Of a stretch of DNA of 53,650 nt, positions 33,431 through 52,336 are shown piece by piece. Source of the DNA: Gelidibacter salicanalis (GTDB lineage: Bacteria; Bacteroidota; Bacteroidia; Flavobacteriales; Flavobacteriaceae); contig NZ_JAEHJZ010000012.1 of assembly GCF_016469035.1 (NCBI RefSeq), forward strand, positions 1-53,650. The letters are read 5' to 3'. Position numbers and translations under genes: made by a program. Under the pieces are notes generated by a model. It saw nothing but the letters and a program-made list of their open reading frames with translations. It ran no database searches and had not been told where the DNA came from. The stretch's first letter is position 1; every line of letters begins with the position of its first letter.

Positions 33431-33886
33431 ATGAAAACATTTATAGTTACTTTAACATTTTTTTTGTGTTCAATTTCAATATATGCGCAGGACAAATTAA
33501 CTTTCAAATACGACACAGCTGGAAATCAAATTACCAGAGAGCGGATATGTCTAAACTGTAATCCCCTATCGCGATCTGCAACTACAGAGTCTGATTCCCT
33601 TGGCATTGCCGATAATGATCTCAAAACTGTCACTGAGTTCCAATTAAAATCCTATCCCAATCCAGTTGTGGATGAACTTTATGTAGAGTGGGTCAACAAC
33701 CCTGAAATGTTAGTGGCTAAAATCCAATTATTTTCAATTAGCAGCCAGCTCCTGTATGATATGAATGTTAATGACAGACAGGGAGAACAACAAATCAATT
33801 TTTCAAATTTTCCTGCTGGGATTTATAATGTAGTCATACATTATACAAACCACTCAAAAAAAACATTTAAGATTATTAAAAAATAA
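33431..33886 (+). CDS. Small secreted protein with T9SS type A sorting domain, coupled to the RHS gene
   Basis: This 151-residue protein has a signal peptide ending IYAQ. The mature start, DKLTFKYDTAGNQITRER, looks like a single YD (RHS-type) repeat and is followed by CLNC. The last ~80 residues are a T9SS sorting (Por secretion) domain: LKSYPNPVVDELYVEW, QLFSISSQLLYDMNV, FPAGIYNVVIHY and KKTFKIIKK. T9SS cargo is moved across the outer membrane. Its TAA overlaps the ATG of the giant RHS gene (TAATG), implying translational coupling and a joint function, perhaps as a surface cap or anchor. The joint function is inference. Confidence 0.8.
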   Translation: MKTFIVTLTFFLCSISIYAQDKLTFKYDTAGNQITRERICLNCNPLSRSATTESDSLGIADNDLKTVTEFQLKSYPNPVVDELYVEWVNNPEMLVAKIQLFSISSQLLYDMNVNDRQGEQQINFSNFPAGIYNVVIHYTNHSKKTFKIIKK

Positions 33887-36800
33887 TGACTATGGATAAA
33901 AAACTACTTTTGGCACTTGGGTTATTGTACTCGTCACTTTTCTTCGGACAGCAAGGTGTTAACCCATTAGATGAATTTACATACTCGTCATTAAAAACAA
34001 CTGCAACAAGTAATGAATCTATATCATTATTCAACTCCCTGCCAGATCCTGACATAGCGAATGCCATGATGGGCGGCTCTGATTTAGGTATAGGGGAAAC
34101 TACTGGTGAACTGTCTGTCTCCTTAACTGGAGGGGCAAATTACACAGTGCCCATTGCCGTTCCTCCCGGGATTAACGGTGTAGTCCCATCAATAGCTTTA
34201 TCCTATGGCAGTCAAGGCGCAAATGGGCTTGCAGGTTATGGCTGGAATATGACAGGAGTTTCGGTAATCACCAGGATTCCTTCCACAAAATTTCATGACA
34301 ATCATATTGATCCAGTGGACTTTGATGCACTTGACAGGTTCAGCTTTGATGGACAAAGACTCCTTTTAAAAGCTGGAACTTATGGTGCTCATGGCGCCCA
34401 ATATGAGACTGAAAATTATTCAAATGTAAAAATAGTTTCGTATGGAATCTCCACTTTTGGGGCTAATTACGGGCCATCATATTTTATTGTATATTATCCA
34501 GATGGTTCTTTTGCCCACTATGGCAATAGCCCCGATTCCAAATCAAGAACTGATTATGCCATAACTTATTGGGAAAATCCCCAGGGAGTGCGTATCAGTT
34601 ATTCTTATATATTAGCTGATAATAGTTTAAGCATCAGCAGAATTAAATATGGATCTCGAACTACGAATACGCCAATCAATGAAGTTCAATTTGTATATGC
34701 ACCAAGAAAAAGATTTGAACAAGCTTATATTGGAGAAAGTCCAACAGTGGCAAACTCCTTCATTAGAAAAAACCTGCTGAAAGAGATAAAAGTTATTGCT
34801 GGCGGTGTTGGTTATAAAAACTACGTTCTAACCCATGCATTCAATTCTTTGGGCTATGAGAGGTTGATTAGCGTACAAGAGAAAAATGGAGACAACACTT
34901 TGGCGCACACACCAATTACTTTTAATTATTCTACTTCTGCCGCAACCATTACCAATGACCGAAATATTGTTACTGAATTGGGTATAGGAAATATTGAACA
35001 GCGAAATGCAGAAACAGTATCTTTAGACCTGAATGGAGATGGTAAAATGGATTTTTTGGTGTATCCAAAAACCAAGAGCTTAAGAACAAAGTTTTGGGTT
35101 TTTAAGGAATTGCAGACCGGTAGTTTCAACTATCCAATTACGGTCAATTCAGGTGCCTTTGAGGCTATTTTTCCAGTGTCATGGTTGACGCACAATAATA
35201 AGCTTCACTCAAGTCAGGGCATCGCTATTGTACAAAACTCGACTGCGACCAATCAAATCAAATTCAAGGTCTATTCCAATGGTACTACTGCTCCCATTTA
35301 CTACCAATATGAAAAAATTTGGAATGCACCAACTTACACAAATCGGACTTCTTGTAACGATAATGTAAACACTTATTTGGTTCCACAAGAATACATTTCT
35401 GGCGATTTTAACGGTGATGGTCTATCCGATGTTATTGCAGTATCCAAAAATTACTCTTATCAAAACTGTATTGCCTATCTTCCTTTACCAGGTGACAACT
35501 GTGCTAACACAATTGAAGGTTGTTGTGTATGTGAAACTGCCAATAGTACGTCAACTCAAGTCAACTTGATAAGTTTGGACAGAAGAATGACCACTAATTT
35601 TGTGAAATCGGTAGGCTTTTTGTCAGGAGGCCTTAAAAGCACCGATCAGTTAATGGCATTCGATATGAACGGCGATGGCAAAACTGATATTGTCCGTATT
35701 GCAGCAGGGAAGATAAGCGTATACACTTTGAATAGCACGGACAATCTCACCTTACTTTGGGAAACTTCCGATTCTAGAATAAAACTTGAATACCAGCCTA
35801 TGATTGGTGACTTCAATGGGGACGGTAAAATGGATTTTATGTATCCGACCGCAAATAACAGTACTCTATTTGCTCTATTTTTATCATCTGGTACTTCGTT
35901 GTTAAAGAGCGAAAACACCTACCCCTTCGCTTATAAATTAAGTTCACTGGGATCAACTACAAATACATATAACTTATTGCCCGTAGATGTCAATGGCGAT
36001 GGAAAAACGGACATTTTAGAGTACAAGACCACAACTTATAATGATAGTAGCAATGGCTCACAGACTATAATACAATATAATAACACATTTTCGACTTCTG
36101 CTGCGGCCTTGCCCGCCTTCAGCTATACTACAACTATTACGAAGTCAGGAAATCTAAAACACTTCCCAATCCCTATTTTTTTGAGCCCGGACAAACCTAA
36201 CAGCAACTTAAACTTTGCCTCTATCAGTAATAACTGGGTTACTTCGTTTGCTTTTAACCAAGACAATCGGGAAGATATGCTTTTAAGATCTGTTACCAAT
36301 AACGGACTTACCCAAAGCATCGATTATAAGAACCTTGACCCAAGTGAATCAGGGCATGATTATAACCCAATTTATACCATGGCTTATGACCAAGTTTATC
36401 CTTATGCAGATATAGGAGTAGTTTTGGGCTTAAAAGTAGTCAGTCAATTGCAGCGCATCTCCTCAGGCACCACGACACTGAAACAAAATTTCAACTATTA
36501 CGGCGCTGTATCAAATGTTGAAGGATTGGGTTTTATGGGTTTCGAGGGGGTCGCACGCTCCAATTGGAACACGGGTCCCGAAGATATCATCTGGAATATT
36601 TCAAAGCATGATATATCATTGAGGGGGGCGGTATCCAATAATTATGCAATGTTGGGCTACTATACCTATACCGTCCCATCAAGTTCGTATATTTCAAAAA
36701 CCACCTACAATTATTCAAGTACCTTGCTAGGAAATAAGGTCTTTAAAATTTCCAACAGTTCCATGGTAACCCAAAATGCGATGGAGAGTACTGTAACCAC

Positions 36801-39800
36801 GCAGTCCTTTTTGTACGATGGCTACAACAACCTGACCAAATCTACTACCTCTTACTCAGGACAGGGGACTACGGTTTTGGATTTGACTTATGCAAACAGC
36901 ACTGCCAATCCCTATTTTATTGGTAGACCATTGACCAAAATAGAGACCAACACAATCAACGGAAATTCATTCAGTTCTGAAGAACAATACGTTTATGACA
37001 ATAATTTAATAGCTAACAAAAAATCAAAAGGTAATGGTACACAGTTTGAAACAGAAACCTATCTGTATGATAGCTTCGGGAATATAACCCAAAAAACGAC
37101 CACACCTTATAACACCGCCCCTCGAATAGTCAATTTTGAATATGATATTTCAGGTCGATATCTGGCTAAAGCTACAGATGTTGAAGGTTTGATAACCCTT
37201 TTTGATTACAATCCAAGCACTGGAACTCTCAAAAAAGAGACAAACCCTTATGGTCTTGCCACAAACTATCTATATGATGGATGGAACCGATTGACCAAGG
37301 TTACGGACTATTTGTCAAAAAACGCCAACACTACATATGTTGAGTCCGGCTATTTATATACCGTTACGGTCTCCGCAGATAATGGTGCCAGCAGTATAAA
37401 AGTATATGATCCTTTAAAACGGTTGATCACAGAAAAAAACAAGGATGTATTGGGCCAGTGGATAAGCAAAAGTTATCAATATGATAAATTTGATAGGGCG
37501 TGGAAAGTGAGCGAACCCTATAGCGGTGCACCGAGTCAATGGAATACTTCAGAGTTTGATGTATATGGCCGGACAACCAAATTGACCAGCTTTACCGGAA
37601 AAACAACCACTATCAGCTATTCTGGACTGTCCTCGACCGTCAATGACGGCACAAAAACGGTAGTGACCACCAAGAATCCTACTGGACAAATCAGTCAGGT
37701 GACCGATCCGGGGGGAACTATTAATTACACATACTATGGTAACGGTACCATGAAGACTGCCAACTATGACGGCGTGATACTGACGACCGAGCAAGATGGT
37801 TGGGGCCGTAAAACAAAAACTACTGACCCGGCAGCGGGCACTTATACCTATACCTACAATGGATTTGGTGAAATGCTGACCGAAACAACCCCAAAAGGTA
37901 CTACGACCTATACGTATTCTTCATTGGGGAAATTGGAACAAAAAAAGATCGTGGGAGATTTGACCAACATGGTTATAAACTATATCTACGATAACACAAG
38001 CAAATTAATCAATAGCATGTCATTGGTCAATACCGATGGCAACAACAGTAACTATATATATACCTATGACAGTTATAAACGCTTGTTCTCTTCCATAGAA
38101 ACAAATCCTTATGCCCAATTTACAAAAATCTTTACCTATGACACTTTTGGACAAGTGGCTACAGAGAAAAGTGAAGCTAAATTACTCATAAACAATAAGA
38201 TCAGCTCAAAGACTATTAAAAATAATTACCAGAATGGAGGTCTAAAATCCATTACAGATAACAGCACTTTGGAAGTATTGTGGAATGTGTCGGGGCTTAA
38301 TGCACGGGGCCAGGTCACCACATCAACAATGGGCAACAACCTGCGTAAGGCCTATACCTACGACTCCTATGGCTATCTGACCCAGTTTAAGAGCGAGAAA
38401 AATATCAATGCAACCCCTTTGGAACTTGTAAAGCTCACCTTTGCATTCAATACCCAAAAAGGGCTTTTAAACAGCAGGACAAATAGTCTCTTTGGATGGA
38501 ATGAAAATTTCACCTATGATAACCTCGATCGATTGGTCAACTTTAATGATAATGCAGGCAGCAAAAGCCATACCTACGACACCCAAGGCCGCATTACCAA
38601 TAACAGCAATGTGGGCACTTATGCCTACACGGGCAAATCGTACCAATTGAAAGAGCTAATACTCAACACCCCCGGTCAGGCCTTTTATGCACCAACTACC
38701 AGACAGGACATTACCTACACGTCTTTTAAAAGTCCGGTAGAGATCACGGAGGCAGGAAAGGATAAGGTGAGTTTCCAATATAATGCCGCAATGGGCAGAT
38801 CCAATATGTTTTATGGCAACACGAATAGCGATAAATTATTGCGACCAATGCGAAAACATTATTCTGCAGATGGGACTATGGAAATTAGTTACGAAAAAAA
38901 CACCGGTAAGACTACATTTATAACCTATATGGCCGGAGATGCCTATTCCGCTCCCGCAATATGGCGATCCGAACAGCTTACCAGCACCAGTGAACAATAC
39001 TTATATTTGCACCGTGATTATCTGGGCAGTATCATAGGCATTACCGATAAAGATGGCACTTTTAAAGAAAAGCGCCATTTTGATGCTTGGGGCAATCTTG
39101 TCAAGTTAACAGATGGCAACAACGTTGCGCTGACCAAATTTGGAGTCTTTGATAGAGGCTATACGGGCCACGAACATTTATTGGGCGTTGGACTGGTGCA
39201 CATGAACGGACGTTTGTACGACCCTGTAGTGCATCGGTTTTTGATGCCTGATAATTTTGTTCAGGATCCGTACAATACCCAAAATTATAACCGGTATAGC
39301 TATGTTCTGAATAATCCTTTGATGTATACTGATGCAAGCGGAGAGTTTTTGTGGATTGCTTTTGCGATTGGCGCCATAATTGGTGCGGCTACTGGGGCTG
39401 CCGCATATATTGCAAGCGCAATTAGTACTGGCAACTGGAGTTGGGGCCAGTTCGCCGTATCCATAGTTAGCGGTGCTTTAATCGGAGGCATAAGTGGTGG
39501 TATCGCGGCATCCGTGACAACCATAACGACGACCGCTTTATTAAATTCTGTCGGTGGGGCATTTGTTGCTGGTCTTCTGCCTAATGCTAATTTTAGTCTG
39601 GGGAATTGGAATTTTAGTATATCTCCTGCTATCGCATTTGGTAAAGGTATTTCATTCGGAGCAAATTTTTCCGTCGGTTTTAACGACGGCAATTTTAGCA
39701 TTTCAGGAGGTTACGGAATTAGTTATGTAGGCAGTGCACATGGGACTGGATCTAGCGGATGGGAATATCGAAAATCATGGGGAGCCAATTGGAACGATGG

Positions 39801-40329
39801 AAAGAGTGGTTTTGGACTTTACAGCACTACCTTTGATAGCGGAAAAACTTCACAAAAGGTTGGAGGATTTAGTTTCAAAAAAGGAGATTTTGGATTTAGG
39901 TATGAGAATGATGGCAGAACATTATTGGGTAAAATAACTAGTGGAAACACGGATATGTATCGAACTACAGCATTCGAAGTTTCGATAGGCGATTTTTCAC
40001 TTCGAGGAAATTTATTTACTGGTCAATCAGGTACAGATGAAAGTGGCCTCCCTTTTGAAGATGCGATTAAAAGTGGCGACCTTGTTGATTTTACTAGAGG
40101 AAAGAACGGATATTGGAAAAACCAAGGAGCGGATTCCTATCGTTTGGGAGCCTTGTCGTTTGGCTTTAAGGGTTATCGTTCCGGAGTGAATTCGGAACAT
40201 GTAAGAAATTTTTTCCAGAATATAATTGCACATGATATTGCTTCTCCCCAGCCTAGGTTTAATATGTTGAGCAGAAACGTTTCTGGTTATTTCCAATATC
40301 AATCTTATAATCCTTATACATTATGGTAA
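33886..40329 (+). CDS. Full-length SpvB/YD-repeat RHS polymorphic toxin with Ntox23-like tip
   Basis: This 2147-residue protein may start at 33886 or 33892. Signal peptide: LLLALGLLYSSLFFGQQ. SpvB-like domain at ~65-130 (GELSVSLTGGANYTVPIAVP). Five FG-GAP/VCBS calcium-type motifs lie at ~381, 506, 593, 643 and 701 (DxNGDGKxD). TcdB-middle and YD repeats run ~800-1700, then the RHS core at ~1703-1820 (YLYLHRDYLGSIIGITDKDG, GRLYDPVVHRFLMPDNFVQD, NNPLMYTDASGEF). A glycine/alanine-rich linker leads to the tip: GWEYRKSWGANWNDGKSGFG, VGGFSFKKGDFGFRYENDG and RTTAFEVSIGDFSLRGN. The tip resembles polymorphic toxin type 23 (Ntox23), with moderate certainty. Canonical RHS proteins form a cage that releases the C-terminal toxin. 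The next gene overlaps by 7 bp. Confidence 0.88.
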   Translation: MTMDKKLLLALGLLYSSLFFGQQGVNPLDEFTYSSLKTTATSNESISLFNSLPDPDIANAMMGGSDLGIGETTGELSVSLTGGANYTVPIAVPPGINGVVPSIALSYGSQGANGLAGYGWNMTGVSVITRIPSTKFHDNHIDPVDFDALDRFSFDGQRLLLKAGTYGAHGAQYETENYSNVKIVSYGISTFGANYGPSYFIVYYPDGSFAHYGNSPDSKSRTDYAITYWENPQGVRISYSYILADNSLSISRIKYGSRTTNTPINEVQFVYAPRKRFEQAYIGESPTVANSFIRKNLLKEIKVIAGGVGYKNYVLTHAFNSLGYERLISVQEKNGDNTLAHTPITFNYSTSAATITNDRNIVTELGIGNIEQRNAETVSLDLNGDGKMDFLVYPKTKSLRTKFWVFKELQTGSFNYPITVNSGAFEAIFPVSWLTHNNKLHSSQGIAIVQNSTATNQIKFKVYSNGTTAPIYYQYEKIWNAPTYTNRTSCNDNVNTYLVPQEYISGDFNGDGLSDVIAVSKNYSYQNCIAYLPLPGDNCANTIEGCCVCETANSTSTQVNLISLDRRMTTNFVKSVGFLSGGLKSTDQLMAFDMNGDGKTDIVRIAAGKISVYTLNSTDNLTLLWETSDSRIKLEYQPMIGDFNGDGKMDFMYPTANNSTLFALFLSSGTSLLKSENTYPFAYKLSSLGSTTNTYNLLPVDVNGDGKTDILEYKTTTYNDSSNGSQTIIQYNNTFSTSAAALPAFSYTTTITKSGNLKHFPIPIFLSPDKPNSNLNFASISNNWVTSFAFNQDNREDMLLRSVTNNGLTQSIDYKNLDPSESGHDYNPIYTMAYDQVYPYADIGVVLGLKVVSQLQRISSGTTTLKQNFNYYGAVSNVEGLGFMGFEGVARSNWNTGPEDIIWNISKHDISLRGAVSNNYAMLGYYTYTVPSSSYISKTTYNYSSTLLGNKVFKISNSSMVTQNAMESTVTTQSFLYDGYNNLTKSTTSYSGQGTTVLDLTYANSTANPYFIGRPLTKIETNTINGNSFSSEEQYVYDNNLIANKKSKGNGTQFETETYLYDSFGNITQKTTTPYNTAPRIVNFEYDISGRYLAKATDVEGLITLFDYNPSTGTLKKETNPYGLATNYLYDGWNRLTKVTDYLSKNANTTYVESGYLYTVTVSADNGASSIKVYDPLKRLITEKNKDVLGQWISKSYQYDKFDRAWKVSEPYSGAPSQWNTSEFDVYGRTTKLTSFTGKTTTISYSGLSSTVNDGTKTVVTTKNPTGQISQVTDPGGTINYTYYGNGTMKTANYDGVILTTEQDGWGRKTKTTDPAAGTYTYTYNGFGEMLTETTPKGTTTYTYSSLGKLEQKKIVGDLTNMVINYIYDNTSKLINSMSLVNTDGNNSNYIYTYDSYKRLFSSIETNPYAQFTKIFTYDTFGQVATEKSEAKLLINNKISSKTIKNNYQNGGLKSITDNSTLEVLWNVSGLNARGQVTTSTMGNNLRKAYTYDSYGYLTQFKSEKNINATPLELVKLTFAFNTQKGLLNSRTNSLFGWNENFTYDNLDRLVNFNDNAGSKSHTYDTQGRITNNSNVGTYAYTGKSYQLKELILNTPGQAFYAPTTRQDITYTSFKSPVEITEAGKDKVSFQYNAAMGRSNMFYGNTNSDKLLRPMRKHYSADGTMEISYEKNTGKTTFITYMAGDAYSAPAIWRSEQLTSTSEQYLYLHRDYLGSIIGITDKDGTFKEKRHFDAWGNLVKLTDGNNVALTKFGVFDRGYTGHEHLLGVGLVHMNGRLYDPVVHRFLMPDNFVQDPYNTQNYNRYSYVLNNPLMYTDASGEFLWIAFAIGAIIGAATGAAAYIASAISTGNWSWGQFAVSIVSGALIGGISGGIAASVTTITTTALLNSVGGAFVAGLLPNANFSLGNWNFSISPAIAFGKGISFGANFSVGFNDGNFSISGGYGISYVGSAHGTGSSGWEYRKSWGANWNDGKSGFGLYSTTFDSGKTSQKVGGFSFKKGDFGFRYENDGRTLLGKITSGNTDMYRTTAFEVSIGDFSLRGNLFTGQSGTDESGLPFEDAIKSGDLVDFTRGKNGYWKNQGADSYRLGALSFGFKGYRSGVNSEHVRNFFQNIIAHDIASPQPRFNMLSRNVSGYFQYQSYNPYTLW
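39175..39271 (+). repeat. 97-bp RHS-core block identical to 48699-48795
   Basis: This stretch of the RHS core (encoding HLLGVGLVHMNGRLYDPVVH and RFLMPDNFVQDP) is base-for-base identical to the beginning of the cassette at 48.7 kb by my reading. Highly similar versions start the other cassettes (about 41.13, 46.97 and 50.46 kb). It is a ready substrate for homologous exchange of toxin tips. Confidence 0.8.
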
Positions 40330-40949
40330 GAAAGATCGTCCTGCTAATTACATTTTTGTTATGTTCCTGTGTTAGTATAAACAACAAAAGAGAACAGTTT
40401 AAACCCAATGAAATAAGTCTGGTCAGCGGACCTAAAACAGATGGTTTTTATTATTTCGAAAGAACCATCAACCAAGAAAAATGGATTCACGTTATTCTAT
40501 TTTTCGAGAATGGGTACTTTTTGAACGTAGGCGCAATACCATCGTCAAATTATCTTTATGGTAAGCAAATTGATGAACTATGTGCTGATTTGAAATTGAC
40601 AAATACCTTGTCATCGGCATTGGCTAATGCGAAATGTGTAATTGAGAACTATGATGCTTTTTTCAATCAAGGTATTAACTTCATAAATCGTAAATCTATA
40701 ATTCACAATTGGGGCAAATACACGGTAAAGGATAATGAGGTTTTTGTAAGGTATTATTCTAACTATCTAGGTAATTATTATTTAACGGAGAGATCCGGCA
40801 AAAAAGATCCAAATGACCATCTAACTTTCAACCGAGTTTTTTTTTTAAAAGACGGAAAAGAAAATTTCGTAAATGAAGATTACATTTTTATGGAAGTAGA
40901 ATTAAATCCTATTGAAATACCCGCTATTGTAAAAAATACTTTTAAATGA
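40323..40949 (+). CDS. Lipoprotein, candidate immunity protein for the full-length RHS tip
   Basis: This 208-residue protein overlaps the RHS stop by 7 bp, the usual place for an immunity gene. The N-terminus (MVRKIVLLITFLLCSCVSIN) is a lipoprotein signal. The rest has no family I recognise: IHVILFFENGYFLNVGAIPS, KCVIENYDAFFNQGINFINR, then FNRVFFLKDGKENFVNEDYI. A lipid anchor would put the protection in the periplasm or at the outer membrane, hinting that the tip acts outside the cytoplasm. Immunity function is inferred from position only. Confidence 0.6.
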   Translation: MVRKIVLLITFLLCSCVSINNKREQFKPNEISLVSGPKTDGFYYFERTINQEKWIHVILFFENGYFLNVGAIPSSNYLYGKQIDELCADLKLTNTLSSALANAKCVIENYDAFFNQGINFINRKSIIHNWGKYTVKDNEVFVRYYSNYLGNYYLTERSGKKDPNDHLTFNRVFFLKDGKENFVNEDYIFMEVELNPIEIPAIVKNTFK

Positions 40950-41046
40950 ATATACCTCTCGCTAGGGCAAGAGCTACATTTGTGCCAATGCAGTAATTAC
41001 AATTAAGTTTACTATAAAAGTTCTTTGAAATAGCGATTAGAGTTCC

Positions 41047-41117
41047 CCCGCTTGTGCTGAGCGGCCTGTGCTGAGGGCAGCCGAAGTAAGTCGAAGTAAG
41101 TCAAAGTATTGGGGGTT
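41047..41117. repeat. REP-like palindromic/tandem element before cassette 2
   Basis: A GC-rich block bounded by CCCCC (41047-41051) and GGGGG (41113-41117) contains two GTGCTGAG units and three AGTA/AGTC-GAAGTA-type units (CCGAAGTAAGTCGAAGTAAG). GTGCTGAG and GTCGAAGTA resemble a short dispersed repeat known in several bacterial groups. It is compositionally unlike its surroundings and marks the junction where cassette 2 begins. Confidence 0.45.
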
Positions 41118-41324
41118 AGGGAGCTACAATCATGAACATTTACAAGGCGTAGGTCTATTACATATGAATGGTCGATTATACGACCCTGTCATCCACCGAT
41201 TTTTAATGCCGGATAACTTTATACAGGATCCTTACAATACACAGTCATTCAATAGTTATGGGTATGTTTTGCAGAATCCGTTGAAATATACAGATCCAAG
41301 CGGAGAAATTATTCCTTTATTAAT

Positions 41325-44599: not shown

Positions 44600-45439
44600 A
44601 TGCATAGATTTAAATTTCAAAATGAAATAGACGGTTCAAAAAAATTAATAATCGAATCTTCACGATTAGAGGATTGCATAAAATATATTTTAGATGGAAA
44701 TACAAAATCTATTACAATCAATTGTTTTCAAGGATATTCATTGGATAACATAGATTTTTTAAAAGAAATATCAGAAGTTATAGAAGGATTACACTTACCA
44801 GAAACCAAATTCGACATTGAAATTATTAATAGCCTTCATAAATTAAGGTTTTTAGGATTTGCTGACAATAAAAAGAATACCATAGATCTATCCAATTTTC
44901 CGAAAATTGAAATTTTGGCAACCAATTATTCTAGTAGATTAATAGGATTAGAAACTTGTATAACATTAAACAATTTAACATTGACAGGATTTAACTCTAA
45001 ACATGATAACTTATCTGAATTATCACAATTAATTTATCTCAAGGAGTTAAATTTATTTAAGACTGGCATTAAAGATTTGAAAGGTATTGAAGCTTTATCA
45101 AAGCTTGAAAAATTGGAAATATTCGATGCGAATAAACTAAAAACAATTGCTTCTTTAACTTCATTGTTTTCAATTAAAGAACTTCGACTTCAAAAATGTA
45201 AAAATATAGATGATCTACATCTATTGGGAGAAGTTAAGTCCTTAAGGAAACTAATTATAACAGAATGTGGTGAAATTAAAAGCTTAGATTTCATTGAAAA
45301 ATTGGAGAATCTCGATTTTTTAAGTTTTTGGGACACTACAATTTTGGACGGAAATTTAAACTTTTGTGAAGGAATTAATTTTGTTGGTTTTAAAGATAAA
45401 AAAGGATATTCGCATAAAGTAAGTGATTTTAGAAAGTAA
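44600..45439 (+). CDS. Leucine-rich-repeat protein, candidate orphan immunity protein
   Basis: This 279-residue protein, without a signal peptide, has about eight LRR units with the pattern LxxLxxLxIxxxxxIxxL. Examples are LSQLIYLKELNLFKTGIKDL, IEALSKLEKLEIFDANKLKT and LTSLFSIKELRLQKCKNIDD. Cytoplasmic LRR proteins occur as immunity partners in RHS/CDI loci. It sits between the SUKH gene and a broken HEAT-repeat immunity gene. No matching toxin is directly upstream. Confidence 0.65.
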   Translation: MHRFKFQNEIDGSKKLIIESSRLEDCIKYILDGNTKSITINCFQGYSLDNIDFLKEISEVIEGLHLPETKFDIEIINSLHKLRFLGFADNKKNTIDLSNFPKIEILATNYSSRLIGLETCITLNNLTLTGFNSKHDNLSELSQLIYLKELNLFKTGIKDLKGIEALSKLEKLEIFDANKLKTIASLTSLFSIKELRLQKCKNIDDLHLLGEVKSLRKLIITECGEIKSLDFIEKLENLDFLSFWDTTILDGNLNFCEGINFVGFKDKKGYSHKVSDFRK

Positions 45440-45476
45440 AACTTATTTTTTAAAATCACAATATTTATGATCTTAA

Positions 45477-45645
45477 ATGGATTTGTCTAAAAACTTCAAA
45501 GAATTAATTCAAAAACCTAGAAATCAAGGCAAGAATTAGAATTACAAAATGAGATTGGAATTAAATTAGAAATTGCATTGAATAAAGAGGCTTTAACACT
45601 GTTGGAGGAACTTAATAGCATCGGTTTAAATATATCCTCAAGATG
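45477..45645 (+). pseudogene. 5' fragment of a HEAT-repeat immunity gene (copy of the gene at 51656)
   Basis: About 165 bases closely match the start of the intact gene at 51656-52336. The shared peptides are LSKNFKELIQKP, then (after a one-base deletion) ELELQNEIGIKLEIALN and LNSIGLNISS. Similarity stops at TATCCTCAA and the sequence passes directly into a different toxin tip. The deletion and the truncation make it non-functional. It is a clear scar of recombination within the locus. Confidence 0.8.
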
Positions 45646-46071
45646 GGAATGGCTGTCGGTGGTATTATTGGTGGAGCACAAGGTTTAAAATATGCAAAAA
45701 CCAACGGTTTAGATCCTTTCTCTGGAAAACTTATACCTAAAGAAGGCTCAACTGTTGTTAGGCATCATACTAGCCCCCAAGCTATGGCTTCTATTAAAAA
45801 CAGCCAAGAAATTACACCATCAAGAGATTCTGGATATGGTTTTAAAGGAACAGATTTCGAGGGAAGTCCAAATTTCAATGGAAATCAAAATTTCGATAAC
45901 TATCAAAACGGTGCTTTCATTGAAATGAGACTTTCAAATGACATATTAATACCCTATCAAAGTCCACATCCAGCTTATTCAAACTATTTTAGGGTAAATA
46001 GTGGTGGAGGTAATTTTGTAATAAATCCTGGTAACCAAGCTCAGTACTATATAAATTTAAAATTTTGGTAA
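45643..46071 (+). pseudogene. Detached RHS toxin tip, possibly ADP-ribosyltransferase-like (HYD1 type)
   Basis: This 142-residue frame begins in an RHS linker (GMAVGGIIGGAQGLKYAKTN) but has no RHS core upstream, since it is joined to the HEAT-gene fragment. The tip reads VVRHHTSPQAMASIKNSQEI, then TPSRDSGYGF, GAFIEMRLSNDILIP and NPGNQAQYYINLKFW. The RHHTS...I..S..I.PSR pattern is reminiscent of HYD1-type ADP-ribosyltransferase toxins. I rate this as suggestive only. The frame is intact, so it could serve as a donor of a tip, but there is no visible promoter or export signal. Confidence 0.5.
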
Positions 46072-46599
46072 ATGAAATTAGTTTGTTTAGATAGAAGAAG
46101 CTTTATTTTACTAGCGTTAGTGCTTAGGCAATTCGGTCTATCTGTTGGACGTAGTGCCTCAATGACGGAAGATATAACTCTATTCTTTAAAAAGAATCGT
46201 ACATATTATCAAGTATTGCGAGAAAAATTGAATCAAATTGTTGAAAAGAACGATTTGAAGATAAATTGGCAGGTGGAAATTCGAGAACGGCACCCTACCG
46301 GTATAGTTAATTTGTTTATAAAAAAATCTTGCTTTTATGAATCAGATTTCAATCATATCATCAAAATTTTTTTTTCTGGTTTTGAAATAATCGAATCAGG
46401 AAAAATCGAACAAGATGATAAGTGGATTGATTTAGGACACGAAGCAATGATGTTTTCCAGGTATTTAATTGATCGTAAACTTTCAAAGAGCGAAAAAATT
46501 ATTGTTGATCTGGTTGAACATTTTGAACAGAACGAAATGGTTCATGATAAATTTTATACAATTAAAGATGCTTTATCAATTTTAGATTTATCAATTTAG
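46072..46599 (+). CDS. Candidate immunity protein for the 45.6-kb tip
   Basis: The start codon directly follows the tip's stop. The 175-residue product has a hydrophobic, odd N-terminus (MKLVCLDRRSFILLALVLRQ); the more protein-like part begins near MTEDITLFFKKNRTYYQVLR, so an internal start is possible. The remainder is soluble, with KINWQVEIRERHPTGIVNLF and KWIDLGHEAMMFSRYLIDRK. I recognise no family. Immunity is inferred from position. Confidence 0.5.
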   Translation: MKLVCLDRRSFILLALVLRQFGLSVGRSASMTEDITLFFKKNRTYYQVLREKLNQIVEKNDLKINWQVEIRERHPTGIVNLFIKKSCFYESDFNHIIKIFFSGFEIIESGKIEQDDKWIDLGHEAMMFSRYLIDRKLSKSEKIIVDLVEHFEQNEMVHDKFYTIKDALSILDLSI

Positions 46600-46706
46600 A
46601 CTAAAATAAATAACAACAAAGACAATATGAAAAAGAATACACCAATAATAATATTTTCATAAATTATAGGAGTTGGGATTTATGTTGTGCTCCATCAATA
46701 TTTCAT

Positions 46707-48073
46707 TCTGAACAGCTTACCATCACCAGTGAGCAATACTTATATTTGCACCGTGAATATTTAGGCAGTATTATTGGCATTACCGATAAGGATGGCACTT
46801 TTAAAGAAAAGCGGCATTTTGATGCGTGGGAGGGCCGAGCGTTAAAAAAAAGCCAAGGGTTTGGCTTTTTAGCGATGGAGCCAGGCGGCGTGCGAGGGAG
46901 TTAAAGTTAACAGATGGCAACAACGTTGCGCTGACCAAATTTGGAGTCTTTGATAGAGGCTATACAGGTCACGAGCATTTATTGGGTGTTGGGTTGGTGC
47001 ACATGAACGGACGGCTCTACGACCCGGTATTGCATCGGTTTTTGATGCCTGATAATTTTGTTCAGGATCCGTACAATACCCAGTCTTATAATAGATATGG
47101 GTATGTATTGAATAATCCTTTATTGTATACCGATGCTAGTGGAGAGTTGTTTTTCATCCCTATTCTTATAGGAATGGCTTATGGAGCTTTAGTGGGTGCA
47201 GCAATTTCTGCAGCAGTCTATACAATAAGCGCAGCAGTCACAGGAAATTGGAATTTGAGTGGGTTTGGCACGTCAATACTTTTTGGAGCAATTGGAGGAG
47301 CTATATCGGGTGGACTTAGTGCAGCGGCATCCATTGCAAGTACTGGTGTATCATCATTTTTGCAAAGTGCAACGGGTAATATGCTTTCGGAAGTAGCCTC
47401 TCAGGTTGGAACTAGTGCAATAATGGGCGATAATATAACGTTGAGCACAATTGCTGGCAGTGCGGTCAGTGGTTTTGCTGGAGCAGGAATAGGAAACTGG
47501 AAAGGAGTTAAAGGCAGTTGGTTGAAAAATGGGATTGGCGAACTTGGCTTTAACACATTTAAGGGCACTGTCCGGGGCGCAGTAGCAGGCGCCGTAGGTG
47601 CAGGACTTGATGGAGATAACATTAAAAATGCTATAGTCAACGGAGCAAAAAATGGTGCAATAGGTGCTTTTAGCCAATCAGCATTGATGATAGGCACTTT
47701 CGGGGCAACCTACAAGCCTGGGACCGAACAACTAAAATACGCCAATAAAATGGCTGATGCCTTTGGACTCTCAACTGACAAAGTAGCATGGAGAAAAGGT
47801 GGGGCATATCAAGCAATTCAATCGCTAATCGATAATGAAAGAGAGGTAACTTGGGGTAATAGCGTTGCTACATTTAGTAATACAGATCCAGATATATTTG
47901 CTCATGAGTTTGGTCATATTATACAAGCTAGACAACAAGGTTGGTCAACATTCCAAGGCAGAGGTATTTTTGAGCAAATATTTATAGGTCAAAGTGTTTA
48001 TGATAGACCTGGCAGCAACGAATATGAAGCTAGAGTCTTCGCACGTGATTATGGAAAGGCACCAAAATGGTAA
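46707..48073 (+). pseudogene. Orphan RHS C-terminal cassette 3 with HEFGH metallopeptidase-like tip
   Basis: Core similarity starts at 46707 (SEQLTITSEQYLYLHREYLG) and runs to HFDAW. A 74-bp insertion then leads to a stop in that frame. The frame from ~46907 is open: KLTDGNNVALTKFGVFDRGY, MNGRLYDPVLHRFLMPDNFV, NNPLLYTDASGELFF, an Ala/Gly-rich linker, and the tip KYANKMADAFGLSTDKVAWR, DPDIFAHEFGHIIQARQQGW, GSNEYEARVFARDYGKAPKW. HEFGH is the HExxH zinc-protease motif, and the later NEYEAR could supply the third ligand, as in DUF4157-like proteins. There is no signal peptide. A lipoprotein immunity candidate follows. Confidence 0.75.
46830..46903. repeat. 74-bp hairpin element inserted in the cassette-3 RHS core
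   Basis: Relative to the full-length gene (39090-39105), about 74 bases replace the GGCAATCTTGTC segment. The insert contains a perfect stem AAAAGCCAA-GGGT-TTGGCTTTT with CG/GC-rich flanks (GAGGGCCGAGCG, then GGCGGCGTGCGAGGGAG). It introduces a stop in the upstream frame. The strong hairpin, GC contrast and clean replacement suggest a small repetitive element. Confidence 0.65.
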
Positions 48074-48092
48074 TAATTTAATTTAAACTATT

Positions 48093-48599
48093 ATGAAAAT
48101 TTTAAGATATTCTTATTTCTTAACCTGTTGTGTTATCATTAATGGGTGCCTTATGCCACCTCCACCTAAATTCTTTGGTTATAAATGTATAGAATGTCCA
48201 AGCTTTGAAAAAGATCAAGTTAATTTAAAATTGAAGATCCACTCCACCACAGCAGGACAGACATACATAGATCTTTGGGGAGAACTAAAAATAATCAACA
48301 GTGGATTGGACCCTATATTAGTAGAGCCTATAGACTTTGAATATTCTTATAAGAATATTAAGTACGACTCCACTTTTATTGGAAATATTGACATAAGTAA
48401 AGATTTTAAAATCAATCGATTTGATCAGGTAATTGTTCAATTAGGGGCACATGACACTATGCGTCTTGATGTAATTGCTTATCCAAAGCGGAGATTTAAA
48501 AAAGTTGATTTTATTAATTATTGGAAAAATGATACCTTAAAAGTAAAAATATCAATTAATAAGAGAGTATATTATTACAAATTCATTGCTGAAAATTAA
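48093..48599 (+). CDS. Lipoprotein, candidate immunity protein of cassette 3
   Basis: This 168-residue lipoprotein has the signal MKILRYSYFLTCCVIINGC with a proline-rich mature start (LMPPPPKFFG) and a CIEC pair. The rest is a beta-rich domain: DLWGELKIINSGLDPILVEP, DTMRLDVIAYPKRRFKKVDF and KISINKRVYYYKF. It may resemble LEA14/immunoglobulin-like folds. It begins 20 bp after a metallopeptidase-like tip; periplasmic protection against a secreted protease is an attractive inference. Confidence 0.6.
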   Translation: MKILRYSYFLTCCVIINGCLMPPPPKFFGYKCIECPSFEKDQVNLKLKIHSTTAGQTYIDLWGELKIINSGLDPILVEPIDFEYSYKNIKYDSTFIGNIDISKDFKINRFDQVIVQLGAHDTMRLDVIAYPKRRFKKVDFINYWKNDTLKVKISINKRVYYYKFIAEN

Positions 48600-48698
48600 T
48601 CCAGTAATTGTCACCCATGTAACATTCAGCAATTTATACAATAGATATGCCTAAAGGAAAAGCTCTTTGAAATATCATTAACATTATTGAACCCTTAG

Positions 48699-48795
48699 CA
48701 TTTATTGGGCGTTGGACTGGTGCACATGAACGGACGTTTGTACGACCCTGTAGTGCATCGGTTTTTGATGCCTGATAATTTTGTTCAGGATCCGT
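48699..48795 (+). repeat. 97-bp RHS-core block identical to 39175-39271
   Basis: This is the start of cassette 4. The identity begins abruptly at CATTTATTGGGCG and ends after CAGGATCCGT, where the sequences diverge (TAAACACCC against ACAATACCC). The sharp edges mark it as a recent recombination or conversion tract. Confidence 0.8.
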
Positions 48796-49757
48796 TAAAC
48801 ACCCAAAACTTTGACAGATACGCATATGTGTTGAACAATCCGTTGATGTACACAGATCCAAGTGGGGAGTTCATAATAGCAGCTCTAATAGGAGCAGCCA
48901 TTGGTATTATTACCAATGGAATAAATAACTCCATAAATGGTAAAGGTTTTTTTAAAGGGGCCGGAAAAGCAGCTTTTTTTGGAGCTATTGGCGGGGCAGC
49001 AGCTTTTGGAATAGGCCAAGTTGCTGCAAATATTGCATCGACCCTAGGGTCTGCGGCCTTTCAATCCGCTGCCCATTTCTACACAAGCGGGTTCCTCTCT
49101 GTCGCCCAAGGTGGGGGTTTTTTAAGCGCGGCATTGGCAGGTGGCATTAGTTCCCGAATAGGTTCTTTTGCGGGAGGCCTGCTAAAGAATGCAAGCCAGG
49201 TATGGAAAGCGGTTGGAATAGTAGGTGCCGGTTCTGTTTCTGGAGGCGTCGGTAGTGTAATTGGTGGTGGCAATTTTTGGAACGGGGTGCGCCAAGGTGC
49301 TATAAGTTCCGGGTTGAATCATACAGCGCATTTAATACAGCAAAAAACTGCCTCAAGTAAATTAATTTCCAAAATTGAACAAGCAATAGAAGCTCAAAGA
49401 GAAGCGATGTTAAGATTTTTAGCTTCGGATCCATTCAATCCTGTTCATGATAGTTTTAACGCTATAGACTTCAATTTTAGTGAATATCCTTATAGATCAG
49501 GTATTTTAGCCGACAATGAATACGCAAATCTTTCAGGGAGAATGACCATAGGAGGTAGGAAAATTGAATTTAATGCCACCTATCGGGCAAGACCGGAAAA
49601 TTATGTAACTTACGTTAAACATATTGGTTCCGGAGCCACTATATTTGGCCAGGTTTTGGTAAATTCGTTTGCTCTCACAGGTTCAGGTAGTGTTGTTAGA
49701 CTAAGTATTCCTAATAATGCGAACTACCAATATATAAGAGATTATATTTATAAATAA
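48699..49757 (+). CDS. Orphan RHS C-terminal cassette 4 with unassigned tip
   Basis: The first 97 bases are identical to the RHS core of the full-length gene. The frame has no proper start of its own (a TTG or internal ATG would be needed), so it is most likely a donor cassette. The order is: core (GVGLVHMNGRLYDPVVHRFL), LNNPLMYTDPSGEF, a long Gly/Ala linker (IGAAIGIITNGINNSINGKG, GFLSVAQGGGFLSAALAGGI), a helix (SKLISKIEQAIEAQREAMLR), and the tip RSGILADNEYANLSGRMTIG, FNATYRARPENYVTYVKHIG, IPNNANYQYIRDYIYK. I do not recognise the tip. A lipoprotein gene follows after 9 bp. Confidence 0.7.
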   Translation, partial: HLLGVGLVHMNGRLYDPVVHRFLMPDNFVQDPLNTQNFDRYAYVLNNPLMYTDPSGEFIIAALIGAAIGIITNGINNSINGKGFFKGAGKAAFFGAIGGAAAFGIGQVAANIASTLGSAAFQSAAHFYTSGFLSVAQGGGFLSAALAGGISSRIGSFAGGLLKNASQVWKAVGIVGAGSVSGGVGSVIGGGNFWNGVRQGAISSGLNHTAHLIQQKTASSKLISKIEQAIEAQREAMLRFLASDPFNPVHDSFNAIDFNFSEYPYRSGILADNEYANLSGRMTIGGRKIEFNATYRARPENYVTYVKHIGSGATIFGQVLVNSFALTGSGSVVRLSIPNNANYQYIRDYIYK

Positions 49758-49766
49758 ATCTTAATC

Positions 49767-50390
49767 ATGAAAATGAAATATAATATATACTTCCTTTTTT
49801 TAATTGCGCTTTCTTGTCAAATTCATAATCAGGCAGAAGTAACGTATATTAGTAGCTCCTTGGTACAAAAAAACGGCCAAAAAAAATCTCCGAATTATTC
49901 ATTTATTCATCTTAAGAATGATTCGGTGTTTTTTAGAGATTTATATAAACCTGAGACATTAACTTTTATGGGCGAAATTCCAAAAAAAAAGTCCGAATTT
50001 CTCCTTGATGGTTTGACCTTCAAGTTTACAGAAAACATATTGGAGATTTCAAACTCTAATGTAAAATCTATTTATAGAATTTTAGATAAGGAGAACAATA
50101 AAATAAAAATTGATAAATTTTATTTTAAGAATAAAAAATTTGTTCTAAAATCCAAATTTAACAATGATACCATATTTTTCAGCACTGCGAATAGTTATAG
50201 AAATATGACTTCAAATAGTTCAGATCGATGGTCTTTTGTTGACATTGATGGTTACAAAGTATTATGGCTAAATCTTGGTTACGACGAAGTACCTTTAATC
50301 ATTGAATCGTTCGACAATAAAGAGATCACCGCAAACCTATATGGTTTAAAAAAGAATAAGGTCATATTAAAAGAACTTTTTTCAAATTAA
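49767..50390 (+). CDS. Lipoprotein, candidate immunity protein of cassette 4
   Basis: This 207-residue protein has a lipoprotein-type start (MKMKYNIYFLFLIALSCQIH). The mature part is polar and beta-rich: PNYSFIHLKNDSVFFRDLYK, KSEFLLDGLTFKFTENILEI and DRWSFVDIDGYKVLWLNLGY. I recognise no family. It lies 9 bp after the cassette-4 tip and is the third lipoprotein in an immunity position in this locus. Confidence 0.55.
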   Translation: MKMKYNIYFLFLIALSCQIHNQAEVTYISSSLVQKNGQKKSPNYSFIHLKNDSVFFRDLYKPETLTFMGEIPKKKSEFLLDGLTFKFTENILEISNSNVKSIYRILDKENNKIKIDKFYFKNKKFVLKSKFNNDTIFFSTANSYRNMTSNSSDRWSFVDIDGYKVLWLNLGYDEVPLIIESFDNKEITANLYGLKKNKVILKELFSN

Positions 50391-50459
50391 AAAAGGCTAT
50401 TAGGGATTCCCGAAGAGAAAAAAACAAAATTAGTTGCGCCTCGCAAATTTGCCGTAAGT

Positions 50460-51647
50460 GATAGAGGCTATACAGGCCACGAACATTTGTTGGGGGTTGG
50501 ACTGGTGCACATGAACGGACGCTTGTACGATCCAATAGTACATAGGTTTTTGATGCCCGATAATTTTGTTCAGGATCCGTACAGTACCCAGTCTTATAAT
50601 AGGTATGGGTATGTATTGAATAACCCACTATTATATTCCGACCCAAGCGGTGAAATTATTCCTTTATTAATAATTGGCGCGGCATTGGTGGGTGCATATA
50701 TGGGTGGAGCACAGGCGAATGGAACTTGGAATCCGCTTAAATGGATTTATAAAAGTAGTAGTACATGGATTGGTATGGCGGGTGGTGCTGCAATAGGTAT
50801 TGCTACCGCAGGAATAGGAATTGCTGTCACGGCCGCAATCACTCCAGCATTGGCTAGCTTAGGTATTACTGGGGGCATTCTGGGGGGAGCTATTACGGGC
50901 ATTGCTACTGGTACGGCCGCTGGAGCTTTTTCAGGGGGCTTTAGTAATATTCTTCCAGGTGGAAGTGGCAATTTTTGGGGAGGAGTAGTTAAGGGCGCTA
51001 TTATGGGCGCTATAACTGGAGGGATTTTGGGTGCTTCTATTGGAGGTCTTATGACCCCGAAGGGTCATAACGTTTGGACTGGTGCTGCACCTCGCGCAGC
51101 CGTTGCGCCTGTAAGTACCATCCAAGCAACGGGAGTGTCAACAATAGACGATGCCGCAAGTATAAAAACCGAAGTTCTAACCTCAAAAATTGCCAGTCCT
51201 GCTCCATCAACCAGCCCGTCAGTTGCGCCAGCACCCACTACGCCAATAAAGGATGGTATGGGTGTCGTGGAAGTTAATATTAGACCAGTGCAAAATCCAC
51301 TTGATTTGGTTAATGTAGAAACTAATAATTTTGGAATTGCCAATTCTAGAGCTTTAGGATTGCAAGGAGAAAGTGCTGTGGGAGTGGGGACAAAAACAAG
51401 AATACCCTCTTTAACTAATACGGCAGCCTACAGAGTTCCTGATCACTTATCTTCTACTGCATTAGGCGAAATTAAGAATGTCAGTCATTTAAGTTTAACT
51501 AGACAATTAAGAGATTTTCATCTGTTTTCACAACAAAATGGGCTGCAATTTAATTTATTTACTAGATCAACTACAACTTTTTCTCAACCTTTGCAAAATT
51601 TAATAAATAATGGTAGTATTATTGTTCAACCTATTCCATTTAAATAA
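50460..51647 (+). CDS. Orphan RHS C-terminal cassette 5 with PD-(D/E)xK-like nuclease tip
   Basis: The frame begins inside the RHS core (DRGYTGHEHLLGVGLVHMNG) without a proper start or signal peptide. After LLYSDPSGEIIPLL comes the Gly-rich linker shared with cassette 2, here uninterrupted. The tip from ~51300 reads GIANSRALGLQGESAVGVGT, then KTRIPSLTNTAAYRVPDHLS, TALGEIKNVSHLSLTRQLRD and LFTRSTTTFSQPLQNLINNG. The VPD...LGEIKN spacing fits a PD-(D/E)xK restriction-endonuclease fold, as in Tox-REase toxins (probably Tox-REase-7-like). The following HEAT-repeat protein would be its cytoplasmic immunity. Confidence 0.75.
   Translation, partial: DRGYTGHEHLLGVGLVHMNGRLYDPIVHRFLMPDNFVQDPYSTQSYNRYGYVLNNPLLYSDPSGEIIPLLIIGAALVGAYMGGAQANGTWNPLKWIYKSSSTWIGMAGGAAIGIATAGIGIAVTAAITPALASLGITGGILGGAITGIATGTAAGAFSGGFSNILPGGSGNFWGGVVKGAIMGAITGGILGASIGGLMTPKGHNVWTGAAPRAAVAPVSTIQATGVSTIDDAASIKTEVLTSKIASPAPSTSPSVAPAPTTPIKDGMGVVEVNIRPVQNPLDLVNVETNNFGIANSRALGLQGESAVGVGTKTRIPSLTNTAAYRVPDHLSSTALGEIKNVSHLSLTRQLRDFHLFSQQNGLQFNLFTRSTTTFSQPLQNLINNGSIIVQPIPFK
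50666..51295 (+). repeat. ~630-bp duplicated linker block (matches 41453-42080)
   Basis: This is the intact version of the linker block, used as the reference to define the 128-bp insertion in cassette 2. The two copies differ by about ten bases and diverge completely at the tips. Confidence 0.85.
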
Positions 51648-51655
51648 TCGCGAAC

Positions 51656-52336
51656 ATGAACTTAAATGAATTGTCTAAAAACTTCAAAGAATTAATTCAA
51701 AAGCCCAAGAAATCAAGGCAAGAATTAGAATTGCAAAATGAGATTGGAATTAAATTAGAAATAGCATTGAATGAGGAAGCTTCAACGTTAGTGGATGAAC
51801 TCAATGGTATCGGTTTAAATATATCCTCAATATGGGACTTGGTTAACACGAGGAAAAAATACCCCAGAGCTATAAGTATTTTATTAAAACATTTAGTTAA
51901 AGATTATAGTGAAAAAAATAAAGAAGGCATAGTAAGAGCTCTGACGGTAAAAGAAGCAATTGGAAAAGCGACACCAACTTTAATCGATGAATATATGAAA
52001 TTGTCGAAAGATCAAACAATATTGCGTTGGACCATAGGAAATGCCATATTTAAAACAATTACCAAACATGATGTCGATCGAATAATACCAATAATAAAAG
52101 ATAAAGAGAATGGTATATCTAGGCAAATGTTTGTTGCAGCCTTAGGAAAAGTCAATTTGCAAAATGTCGAAAATGTATTAATTGATTTACTTGACGATGA
52201 TGAAGTTGTAGTGCAAGCTATCAAAGCATTAGGTCAATTGAAGTCGTTAAAAGCAAGAGAGAAAATAGTGGTACTTAGCAAGCATTCTAACAAATTAATA
52301 AAAACAGAAGCTGAGAATGCATTAAAAGTTTTGTAA
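51656..52336 (+). CDS. HEAT-repeat candidate immunity protein of cassette 5
   Basis: This 226-residue all-helical cytoplasmic protein starts 9 bp after the nuclease tip. The C-terminal half has HEAT-like units: GISRQMFVAALGKVNLQNVE, NVLIDLLDDDEVVVQAIKAL, GQLKSLKAREKIVVLSKHSN. The N-terminal half has NELSKNFKELIQKPKKSRQE and NGIGLNISSIWDLVNTRKKY. A truncated, frameshifted copy of its 5' end lies at 45477-45645, showing that this toxin/immunity pair existed in at least two places. Confidence 0.75.
   Translation: MNLNELSKNFKELIQKPKKSRQELELQNEIGIKLEIALNEEASTLVDELNGIGLNISSIWDLVNTRKKYPRAISILLKHLVKDYSEKNKEGIVRALTVKEAIGKATPTLIDEYMKLSKDQTILRWTIGNAIFKTITKHDVDRIIPIIKDKENGISRQMFVAALGKVNLQNVENVLIDLLDDDEVVVQAIKALGQLKSLKAREKIVVLSKHSNKLIKTEAENALKVL

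Follow-up and report, generated by a model that had tools for sequence, protein, structure and literature searches.

How does a bacterial genome come to carry one full-length toxin gene followed by a train of toxin ends that lack a start, and are those ends spare parts, relics or genes in their own right? We address this question for a locus of Gelidibacter salicanalis (Flavobacteriaceae; contig NZ_JAEHJZ010000012.1 of assembly GCF_016469035.1). The window is this whole contig (C24), a stretch of 53,650 bases from a 5.16 Mb genome in 682 contigs. It very probably holds an SpvB/RHS-type polymorphic toxin locus linked to the type IX secretion system (T9SS), with a C-terminal displacement array. 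The complete gene is an open reading frame (ORF) at 33886-40329 encoding 2147 residues, as an earlier note on this DNA had claimed, and its N-terminus (MTMDKKLLLALGLLYSSLFFGQQ) resembles a signal peptide; signal peptides and lipoprotein character were read by eye throughout, without a predictor. The product comprises SpvB, FG-GAP and RHS repeat domains, an Rhs core (residues 1733-1819) and an Ntox23 tip (residues 1923-2117). An Rhs core with a variable C-terminal toxin and an adjoining immunity gene places it among the Rhs polymorphic toxins. Tip 1 and immunity gene 1 travel together, as weak relatives of the immunity gene (26-27% amino acid (aa) identity) lie 3' of Ntox23 tips in two other loci (L018 and L060). 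The L060 tip is an orphan relative of the window's own (62% aa over 150 residues), and further relatives sit on complete genes elsewhere.

Downstream of this gene, fragments of the core recur at 41131-41324, 46689-46830 plus 46904-47151, 48699-48871 and 50433-50653, with 72-89% nucleotide (nt) identity among one another (E 2e-89 to 7e-20). They coincide with all four points at which the earlier note had cassettes begin, each at a different place within the core. As also proposed there, every one of these start-less fragments carries its own tip and its own small immunity gene. No signal peptide was seen in any cassette, and the open frames start at or inside the core, 3' of a stop or an insert, so the claim that the cassettes lack signal peptides and proper starts held as well. 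The frames of cassettes 5 and 6 open at the core stub or immediately 5' of it, and that of cassette 4 passes through an insert. Overlooked until now were a core-less fifth tip, three tip-less immunity-type genes and a truncated immunity copy. The full order is the complete gene with a lipoprotein gene, cassette 2 with immunity gene 2, and tip-less immunity-type genes of the CxxC-rich, SUKH-1 and leucine-rich-repeat (LRR) kinds; then a truncated copy of immunity gene 6 with the core-less tip 3 and immunity gene 3, cassettes 4 and 5, each with a lipoprotein gene, and cassette 6 (Tox-REase-7) with a HEAT-repeat immunity gene. Cassettes 2 and 6 have 642 nt in common at 97.5%, after which their tips diverge.

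We propose that such an array arises as follows. The delivery part is encoded by one gene. Homologous recombination in the last 130-250 bp of the RHS core would attach a new tip with its immunity gene, so that the former tip moves downstream along with its core stub and immunity gene. Over repeated rounds, with inserts and deletions, silent cassettes, tips without a core and immunity genes without a tip would accumulate. The stubs retain enough common core for further exchange, and the array could then act as an immunity bank and a tip reservoir simultaneously, its kept immunity genes protecting the cell and its silent tips open to reactivation. Site-specific recombination was held unlikely as the driver, because the core stubs begin at different places in the cassettes.

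For comparison we used a survey of 101 loci, consisting of 80 loci (of 84 encoding a relative), the window and 20 stretches from further genomes; each species is represented by one genome in the collections searched. Among the named relatives found, the closest was Cellulophaga tyrosinoxydans (L038), whose core is 88% identical in aa in its best segment. This locus is colinear with window positions 33845-39350 (72.1% nt over 3780 nt and 70.0% over 1651 nt), and past the core end it continues as window 50460-52312 (72.4% nt over 1868 nt). In Cellulophaga, tip 6 and immunity gene 6 (75.7% and 59% aa, respectively) are thus found on the complete gene, and the breakpoint is exactly the core/tip boundary. 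DNA divergence is similar for the backbone and for tip 6 with its immunity gene. The simplest reading makes tip 6 the resident tip of the common ancestor, moved to the far end of the array by displacement in the window lineage. Displacement outwards is the better-supported direction, compared with copying from a cassette into the complete gene, because the last silent cassette matches the complete-gene tip of the closest relative at roughly the divergence of the backbone.

Tip 6 does not stand alone in this respect. Together with a relative of immunity gene 6 it is also found on the complete gene of a third genome (L012/L134), which shows joint travel of this pair. Relatives of tip 4 sit on complete genes in L073, L074 and L118 (50-63% aa), and tip 3 has one in the complete-gene tip of L033 (genome G313; 38% aa over 82 residues), so relatives on complete genes elsewhere were found for three of the five silent tips. 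The sequences document tip exchange between species, and also reshuffling among the orphans. In G. algens, locus L045 matches window 46027-47133 (83% nt over 1108 nt), covering immunity gene 3, the spacer and a cassette 4-type core with its insert. It then carries a different tip and an LRR gene (92.7% over 395 nt) that is tip-less in the window. At sites separating the cores of cassettes 4 and 6, the 5', insert-bearing part of the L045 core is cassette 4-like (cassette 6 is there partly unrelated sequence), whereas the core end is cassette 6-like at the last 17 of 17 sites, placing a breakpoint inside the core. The likeness to cassette 6 continues beyond the core end, with 89% identity over an ungapped stretch of 868 nt that starts inside the core. 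Near its 5' end the same core resembles the complete gene of the window, not cassette 4, at the first 11 of 11 separating sites. The G. algens assembly, 99% complete, gave no match to the delivery part, although the locus lies at a contig end and a gap is possible; the orphan cassette and its immunity-type genes persist there without such a match.

These comparisons also bear on whether the array could be an assembly artefact of collapsed or chimeric repeats. The number of contigs and the array repeats of up to 642 nt speak for such an artefact, but the separately assembled G. algens contig has the same pieces of immunity gene 3, broken core, pretoxin region and LRR gene, and similar arrays occur in other species. 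We consider this explanation extremely improbable. The proposal that the cassettes are tip donors stood in part: the array does hold recombining tips that move between complete genes and orphans across species, with breakpoints at the core/tip boundary or in the core, while copying into the complete gene of this organism was not shown. The companion proposal, that retained immunity genes protect against former or sibling tips, would fit two of the three tip-less genes. The gene at 43107 has a relative directly 3' of the complete-gene tip in L064, and the LRR gene at 44600 has relatives directly 3' of the orphan tip in G. algens and 3' of a broken cassette in Cellulophaga (L038); for the SUKH-1 gene at 44174, no relative was found among the surveyed loci.

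Across the survey, 16 of the 101 loci have a complete or long gene with orphan cores 3' of it: the window, L038, L041, L043, L053, L062, L063, L076, L078, L099, L112, L118, L119, L120, L126 and L127. Among them, L062 and L063 come from one genome, as do L119 and L120, and in L062, L063, L118-L120, L126 and L127 the long gene runs to the edge of the stretch. The 101 loci yielded 126 tips, which formed 17 clusters with at least two members; clusters 16 and 17 represent the same genome twice. Seven of the 17 clusters mix complete genes and orphans. Five of these are firm; in the other two, the orphan (L047) is possibly an interrupted complete gene, or the match is one of 31% within a single genome (L062/L063). 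Among 82 complete or near-complete genes compared over at least 300 residues of backbone, 240 of 251 pairs with backbones at least 70% identical had tips without detectable homology (no match at E < 1e-6); L039, whose tip is cut by a contig end, is included. In Flavobacterium supellecticarium, the two long genes of L062 and L063, both cut by contig ends, share 1096 nt of backbone at 90.5% but end in different tips, and each has orphan cores 3' of it. Core matches were found in 54 of 397 genomes of the family, many of them weak and to other RHS types, and in 2 of 10 genomes of the genus.

Another explanation is that the downstream pieces are dead displacement relics, kept only since the interspersed immunity genes protect against kin with old tips. 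In its favour, two cassettes are broken by inserts, the array includes immunity-type genes without a tip and a truncated immunity copy, and several orphans in other species are broken. The G. algens orphan cassette without a delivery-part match fits such a graveyard too, as do the Vibrio immunity arrays, which in the passages describing them arise by sequential displacement (PMC5361080). All five silent tips nevertheless keep long open frames, the 868 aligned nt of cassette 6 and G. algens contain no gap despite 93 differences, and three of the five tips have relatives on complete genes elsewhere. We find this explanation rather unlikely, though it deserves weight.

The pattern of substitution was evaluated from Nei-Gojobori counts as the ratio of nonsynonymous to synonymous change (dN/dS). 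Relative to G. algens, dN/dS was 0.10 for the core and pretoxin region of cassette 6, likewise 0.10 for the pretoxin region of cassette 2, 0.16 for immunity gene 3 and 0.21 for the first part of the LRR gene. Against Cellulophaga, where synonymous change is near saturation, the values were 0.13 for tip 6, 0.21 for immunity gene 6 and 0.26 for the LRR gene. Only 25 of the 93 differences between cassette 6 and G. algens are nonsynonymous (neutral expectation about 0.74). Within the window, the pretoxin regions of cassettes 2 and 6 gave dN/dS 0.17, with 5 of 15 differences nonsynonymous (expected 0.72-0.74, P about 0.001-0.002). Change in the cassettes is thus mainly synonymous, which argues against long neutral decay. 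The bias fits both cycling of tips through the complete gene and expression inside the cell.

The second of these possibilities amounts to a different explanation, namely that the orphans are not silent donors but are translated intracellularly from internal starts as toxin-antitoxin modules, as proposed for orphan rhs genes of Salmonella in the part of that work concerned (PMC7043789). The tips stay open and change mainly synonymously, many (not all) orphans in other species have long frames of up to 671 codons, and a core ATG at the motif HMNGR is invariant in seven aligned sequences. That ATG is also part of the complete gene, however, and so does not mark orphans in particular. Inserts interrupt cassettes 2 and 4, yet both inserts lie 5' of the tip, and that of cassette 4 lies 5' of the HMNGR ATG as well. 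Promoter scans do not settle whether the cassettes have promoters of their own. Sigma-70-like sites are slightly above chance (62 vs 48.4 expected, standard deviation 7.0). The flavobacterial promoter consensus is TTG-N17-23-TAnnTTTG. It has 7 plus-strand matches in the window, a count that comes without a chance value; four of them, at three places, lie within cassettes 4 and 6, and none lies within 4 kb upstream of 33431. With the spacer fixed at 19 bases, none was found vs 1.67 expected, and the -7 element alone occurred 69 times vs 75 expected. We regard intracellular toxin-antitoxin modules as improbable and take the cassettes to be silent.

Several points weigh against the displacement array as we read it. 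The cassettes are called silent because starts and signal peptides are missing, and their low dN/dS may be left over from a period on the expressed gene or may mean that the orphans are translated inside the cell. The equal divergence of backbone and tip 6 in Cellulophaga could reflect joint transfer. Tips 2 and 5 have no complete-gene relative among the surveyed loci, the core of cassette 2 is only 74% identical to that of the complete gene, and the 16 separating sites in the middle of the L045 core split evenly, 8 to 8. As to the data, the array ends ~1.3 kb from a contig end in a fragmented assembly (682 contigs), several of the 101 loci and 126 tips derive from the same genomes, and the long gene of L126 is only a distant RHS gene (31%). 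Arrays outside the window are undercounted, because the survey loci reach at most 10 kb downstream and core-less tips were not counted.

How would the complete toxin leave the cell? Directly upstream, overlapping the start of the RHS gene by one base at its stop, lies a gene for a small protein with a signal-peptide-like start, a YD element and a T9SS sorting domain (a YD-CTD protein; CTD, C-terminal domain). The earlier note had called a coupled T9SS partner less familiar. The coupling is both real and very strong, in that a partner relative lies upstream on the same strand within 1.5 kb in 63 of 63 testable complete genes, and within about 135 nt in 62. Testable here means survey complete genes with at least 700 nt upstream, and the profile was built from the partners of these same loci. 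Its novelty fared less well, as adjacency has already been published for Apibacter in a passage of PMC8125069. The partners span Flavobacteriia and Sphingobacteriia. A strict YD pattern occurs in 60 of the 63, with near variants in L051, L073 and L074; among all 77 survey ORFs matching the profile, 11 are without the strict pattern, these three included. In 23 aligned partners, YD residues F25, D28, G31, N32 and Q33 are invariant, and the YD element averages 3.1 bits of information per column, compared with 2.2 for the sorting domain and 1.8 for the linker.

Searching the 397 family genomes with the partner profile gave 26 matches of at least 65 bits, with nine candidates per genome scored, so partners without an RHS neighbour may be missed. 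Of these matches, 24 have an RHS core match 5.2-6.3 kb downstream of them, on the same contig and strand (in one of them, G248, the partner match covers only the sorting domain). Of the other two, one is at a contig end in a genome with its RHS core on another contig (G087), and one lacks the YD element, its genome having given no core match (G325). Matches of lower score were mostly to the sorting domain alone. Longer partners carry modules 5' of the YD element: malectin (L148), one or two jelly-roll-like modules, or three discoidin-like repeats. The jelly-roll-like and discoidin-like names are our presumed assignments, as no Pfam match reached the cut-off. In every long partner read, the YD element is followed by the sorting domain, in that order (the L150 partner has an internal frame break). 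The window partner and its relatives thus have interchangeable N-terminal modules (none, malectin, jelly-roll-like or discoidin-like) before a constant YD element and sorting domain; the loci for this variation are L042, L044, L050, L051, L068, L098, L103, L139-L145, L147, L148 and L150.

No sorting domain was found on the RHS protein itself, and no complete RHS ORF in the survey matches the partner profile. The genome has the T9SS translocon gene SprA. It gave no match to the type VI secretion system (T6SS) sheath protein VipB (the E. coli control matched) and no PF18276 match for a TcA subunit, a search without a working control. The closest solved relatives of the RHS shell by sequence are an Rhs family protein (7q97), YenB and Tse5. 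We tentatively suggest, at something short of an even chance, that the partner is a detachable T9SS address tag. Its YD element would dock as an extra strand in the RHS shell and so supply the T9SS signal in trans, and the toxin with its exchangeable C-terminal tip would be exported and anchored by the T9SS, some partners also carrying exchangeable binding modules. In this form the complete toxin would leave the cell via the T9SS together with its upstream partner. It is also quite possible, if on balance doubtful, that the YD-CTD gene encodes a separate surface protein that shares only the operon, the RHS protein being exported by another route. The constant position upstream of RHS genes, among complete genes and strong profile matches alike, speaks against such independence, as do the retention of the YD element whatever N-terminal module precedes it and the presence of SprA without a VipB match. 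If the docking proposal is true, the locus would be variable at both ends, with binding modules on the partner and toxin tips on the RHS protein, and a sorting signal in trans would be how Bacteroidota export RHS toxins whose C-terminus cannot carry a T9SS signal. No description of a YD element on a T9SS partner was found in the portions of the open-access literature searched.

Features of the toxin locus in the window (all positions refer to the 53,650-base stretch)
Feature	Position	Strand	Remarks
T9SS partner	33431..33886	+	151 residues: signal peptide, one YD element (LTFKYDTAGNQITR), linker, Por_Secre_tail (type A sorting domain)
Complete SpvB / FG-GAP / RHS toxin gene	33886..40329	+	2147 aa; Rhs core end 39348; Ntox23 tip 39349-40329
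Immunity gene 1	40323..40949	+	lipoprotein-like (LCSC)
Core fragment, cassette 2	41086..41324	+	
Hairpin insert separating cassette 2 from core	41328..41452	+	125 nt; fold z-score -7.2
Pretoxin region and tip 2	41466..42401	+	toxin part without Pfam or NCBIfam match
Immunity gene 2	42414..42962	+	no signal peptide seen, no Pfam match
Tip-less immunity-type gene, CxxC pairs	43107..43946	+	sub-threshold Imm11 and Gmx_para_CXXCG matches
Tip-less SUKH-1 (SMI1/KNR4) gene	44174..44497	+	
Tip-less leucine-rich-repeat gene	44600..45439	+	
Truncated copy of immunity gene 6 5' end	45467..45648	+	fused to tip 3; 88.5% nt to the gene at 51656
Core-less tip 3	45643..46071	+	
Immunity gene 3	46072..46599	+	70% aa relative in G. 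algens
Core of cassette 4	46689..47149	+	split by 60-70 nt insert
Tip 4	47150..48073	+	metallopeptidase-like end (HEFGH); eCIS_core and Reprolysin matches under cut-off
Immunity gene 4	48093..48599	+	lipoprotein-like
Cassette 5	48699..49757	+	core up to 48875; tip 5 beyond it, its toxin part lacking a Pfam match
Immunity gene 5	49767..50390	+	lipoprotein-like
Cassette 6	50433..51647	+	core to 50660, pretoxin region, Tox-REase-7 tip
Immunity gene 6	51656..52336	+	HEAT repeats; relatives directly 3' of same tip in L038 and L012

As read from the sequence, the immunity proteins are lipoprotein-like for tips 1, 4 and 5 and without a signal for tips 2, 3 and 6, a mixture consistent with targets in separate compartments. 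No toxin family was matched by tip 2, tip 3 or the G. algens tip at E up to 10 (Pfam) or 5 (NCBIfam). The G. algens tip presumably resembles GIY-YIG nucleases, and tip 3 HYD1-type toxins. An acetyltransferase-like assignment of tip 5 was rejected, its best NCBIfam match (E 0.0009, 18.8 of 160.8 bits) being far under the cut-off and deemed chance.

The 125-nt hairpin in cassette 2 is like a mobile element of the repetitive extragenic palindrome (REP) or miniature inverted-repeat transposable element (MITE) kind. Contig C89 carries an identical copy, and the genome gave nine other matches to it that are partial or diverged (an 81% copy, a 75% copy and seven pieces of 24-31 nt). The cassette 4 insert (about 46834-46901) occupies the same core position in G. 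algens L045 (about 10203-10259), has a single match in each of these two genomes and was not found in two further congeners searched. A terminator in this insert was rejected: the terminator scan did not list its hairpin, and against shuffled sequences its fold shows no advantage in the window (z-score -0.1) and a modest one in G. algens (-2.2). Directly past the array, at the contig end, lies a truncated tyrosine recombinase of the phage-integrase type (53015-53650, minus strand), and short dispersed repeats occur 5' of the toxin locus (29924-30084 / 32835-32995, 86%; 10895-10951 / 29879-29935, 93%). Plasmid carriage was dismissed, as all 99 matching plasmid records were below 60% identity, and anti-phage defence models had no match among the five proteins given to them.

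Enterobacterial Rhs loci with orphan rhs-CT/rhsI modules were reportedly described by Jackson in 2009. For Salmonella, the sections concerned of Koskiniemi 2014 (PMC3967940) establish that orphan modules exist and fuse to the complete gene, which bears out the earlier note's remark that such modules are known in Enterobacteria. According to the same sections, enterobacterial loci resemble the window in having a complete gene with start-less CT fragments and immunity genes that share the 3' core, and in recombination between complete gene and orphans, which for the window is seen across species. The core in common with the complete gene is 522 bp at 95% in Salmonella (PMC3967940) and 173-248 bp at 74-89% in the window. 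The window is set apart from enterobacterial Rhs by an SpvB/FG-GAP N-terminus with a signal peptide, by its T9SS partner, and by having several recombined cassettes as well as immunity genes without a tip. With its N-terminal SpvB domain the complete gene recalls Tc (ABC) toxins. Toxin variation through standalone cassettes is described as general in passages of PMC3482391, and the T9SS terms searched for are absent from the portion of that text examined. In Vibrio cholerae, old immunity genes are likewise retained 3' of a replaced effector; that effector belongs to the T6SS and mainly immunity genes are left, as far as the relevant part of PMC5361080 goes, whereas the window keeps whole tips too.

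Related systems occur in the Bacteroidota. TANFOR polymorphic toxins of Bacteroidetes adjoin T9SS substrate genes, and T9SS export has been proposed for them; they differ from the window in their TANFOR N-terminus and SprB-repeat neighbours, and the passages concerned mention no RHS core array (PMC7073777). In Apibacter, genes with T9SS type A sorting domains adjoin SpvB/TcdB Rhs genes, as in the window, and the corresponding passages mention neither a YD element nor exchangeable N-terminal modules in the sorting-domain gene (PMC8125069). A precedent for the array is 'Candidatus Ornithobacterium hominis', of the same family and with the same SpvB/TcdB gene type. One paragraph of PMC6421346 describes small ORFs 3' of the rhs gene as displaced tips, variable downstream genes and tips that vary between samples. 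The array analysed here is a C-terminal displacement array of a kind already known, including in Flavobacteriaceae, and an unusually well-resolved one; relative to that paragraph, the present analysis resolves breakpoints, mosaic cores and tip sharing across genera. The less familiar part is the upstream T9SS YD-CTD gene with its proposed docking role. With the array, a mechanism described mainly for T6SS Rhs toxins is extended to the signal-peptide-bearing SpvB/RHS class of Bacteroidota, its breakpoints resolved across genera and its cassettes a natural record of once-used tips.

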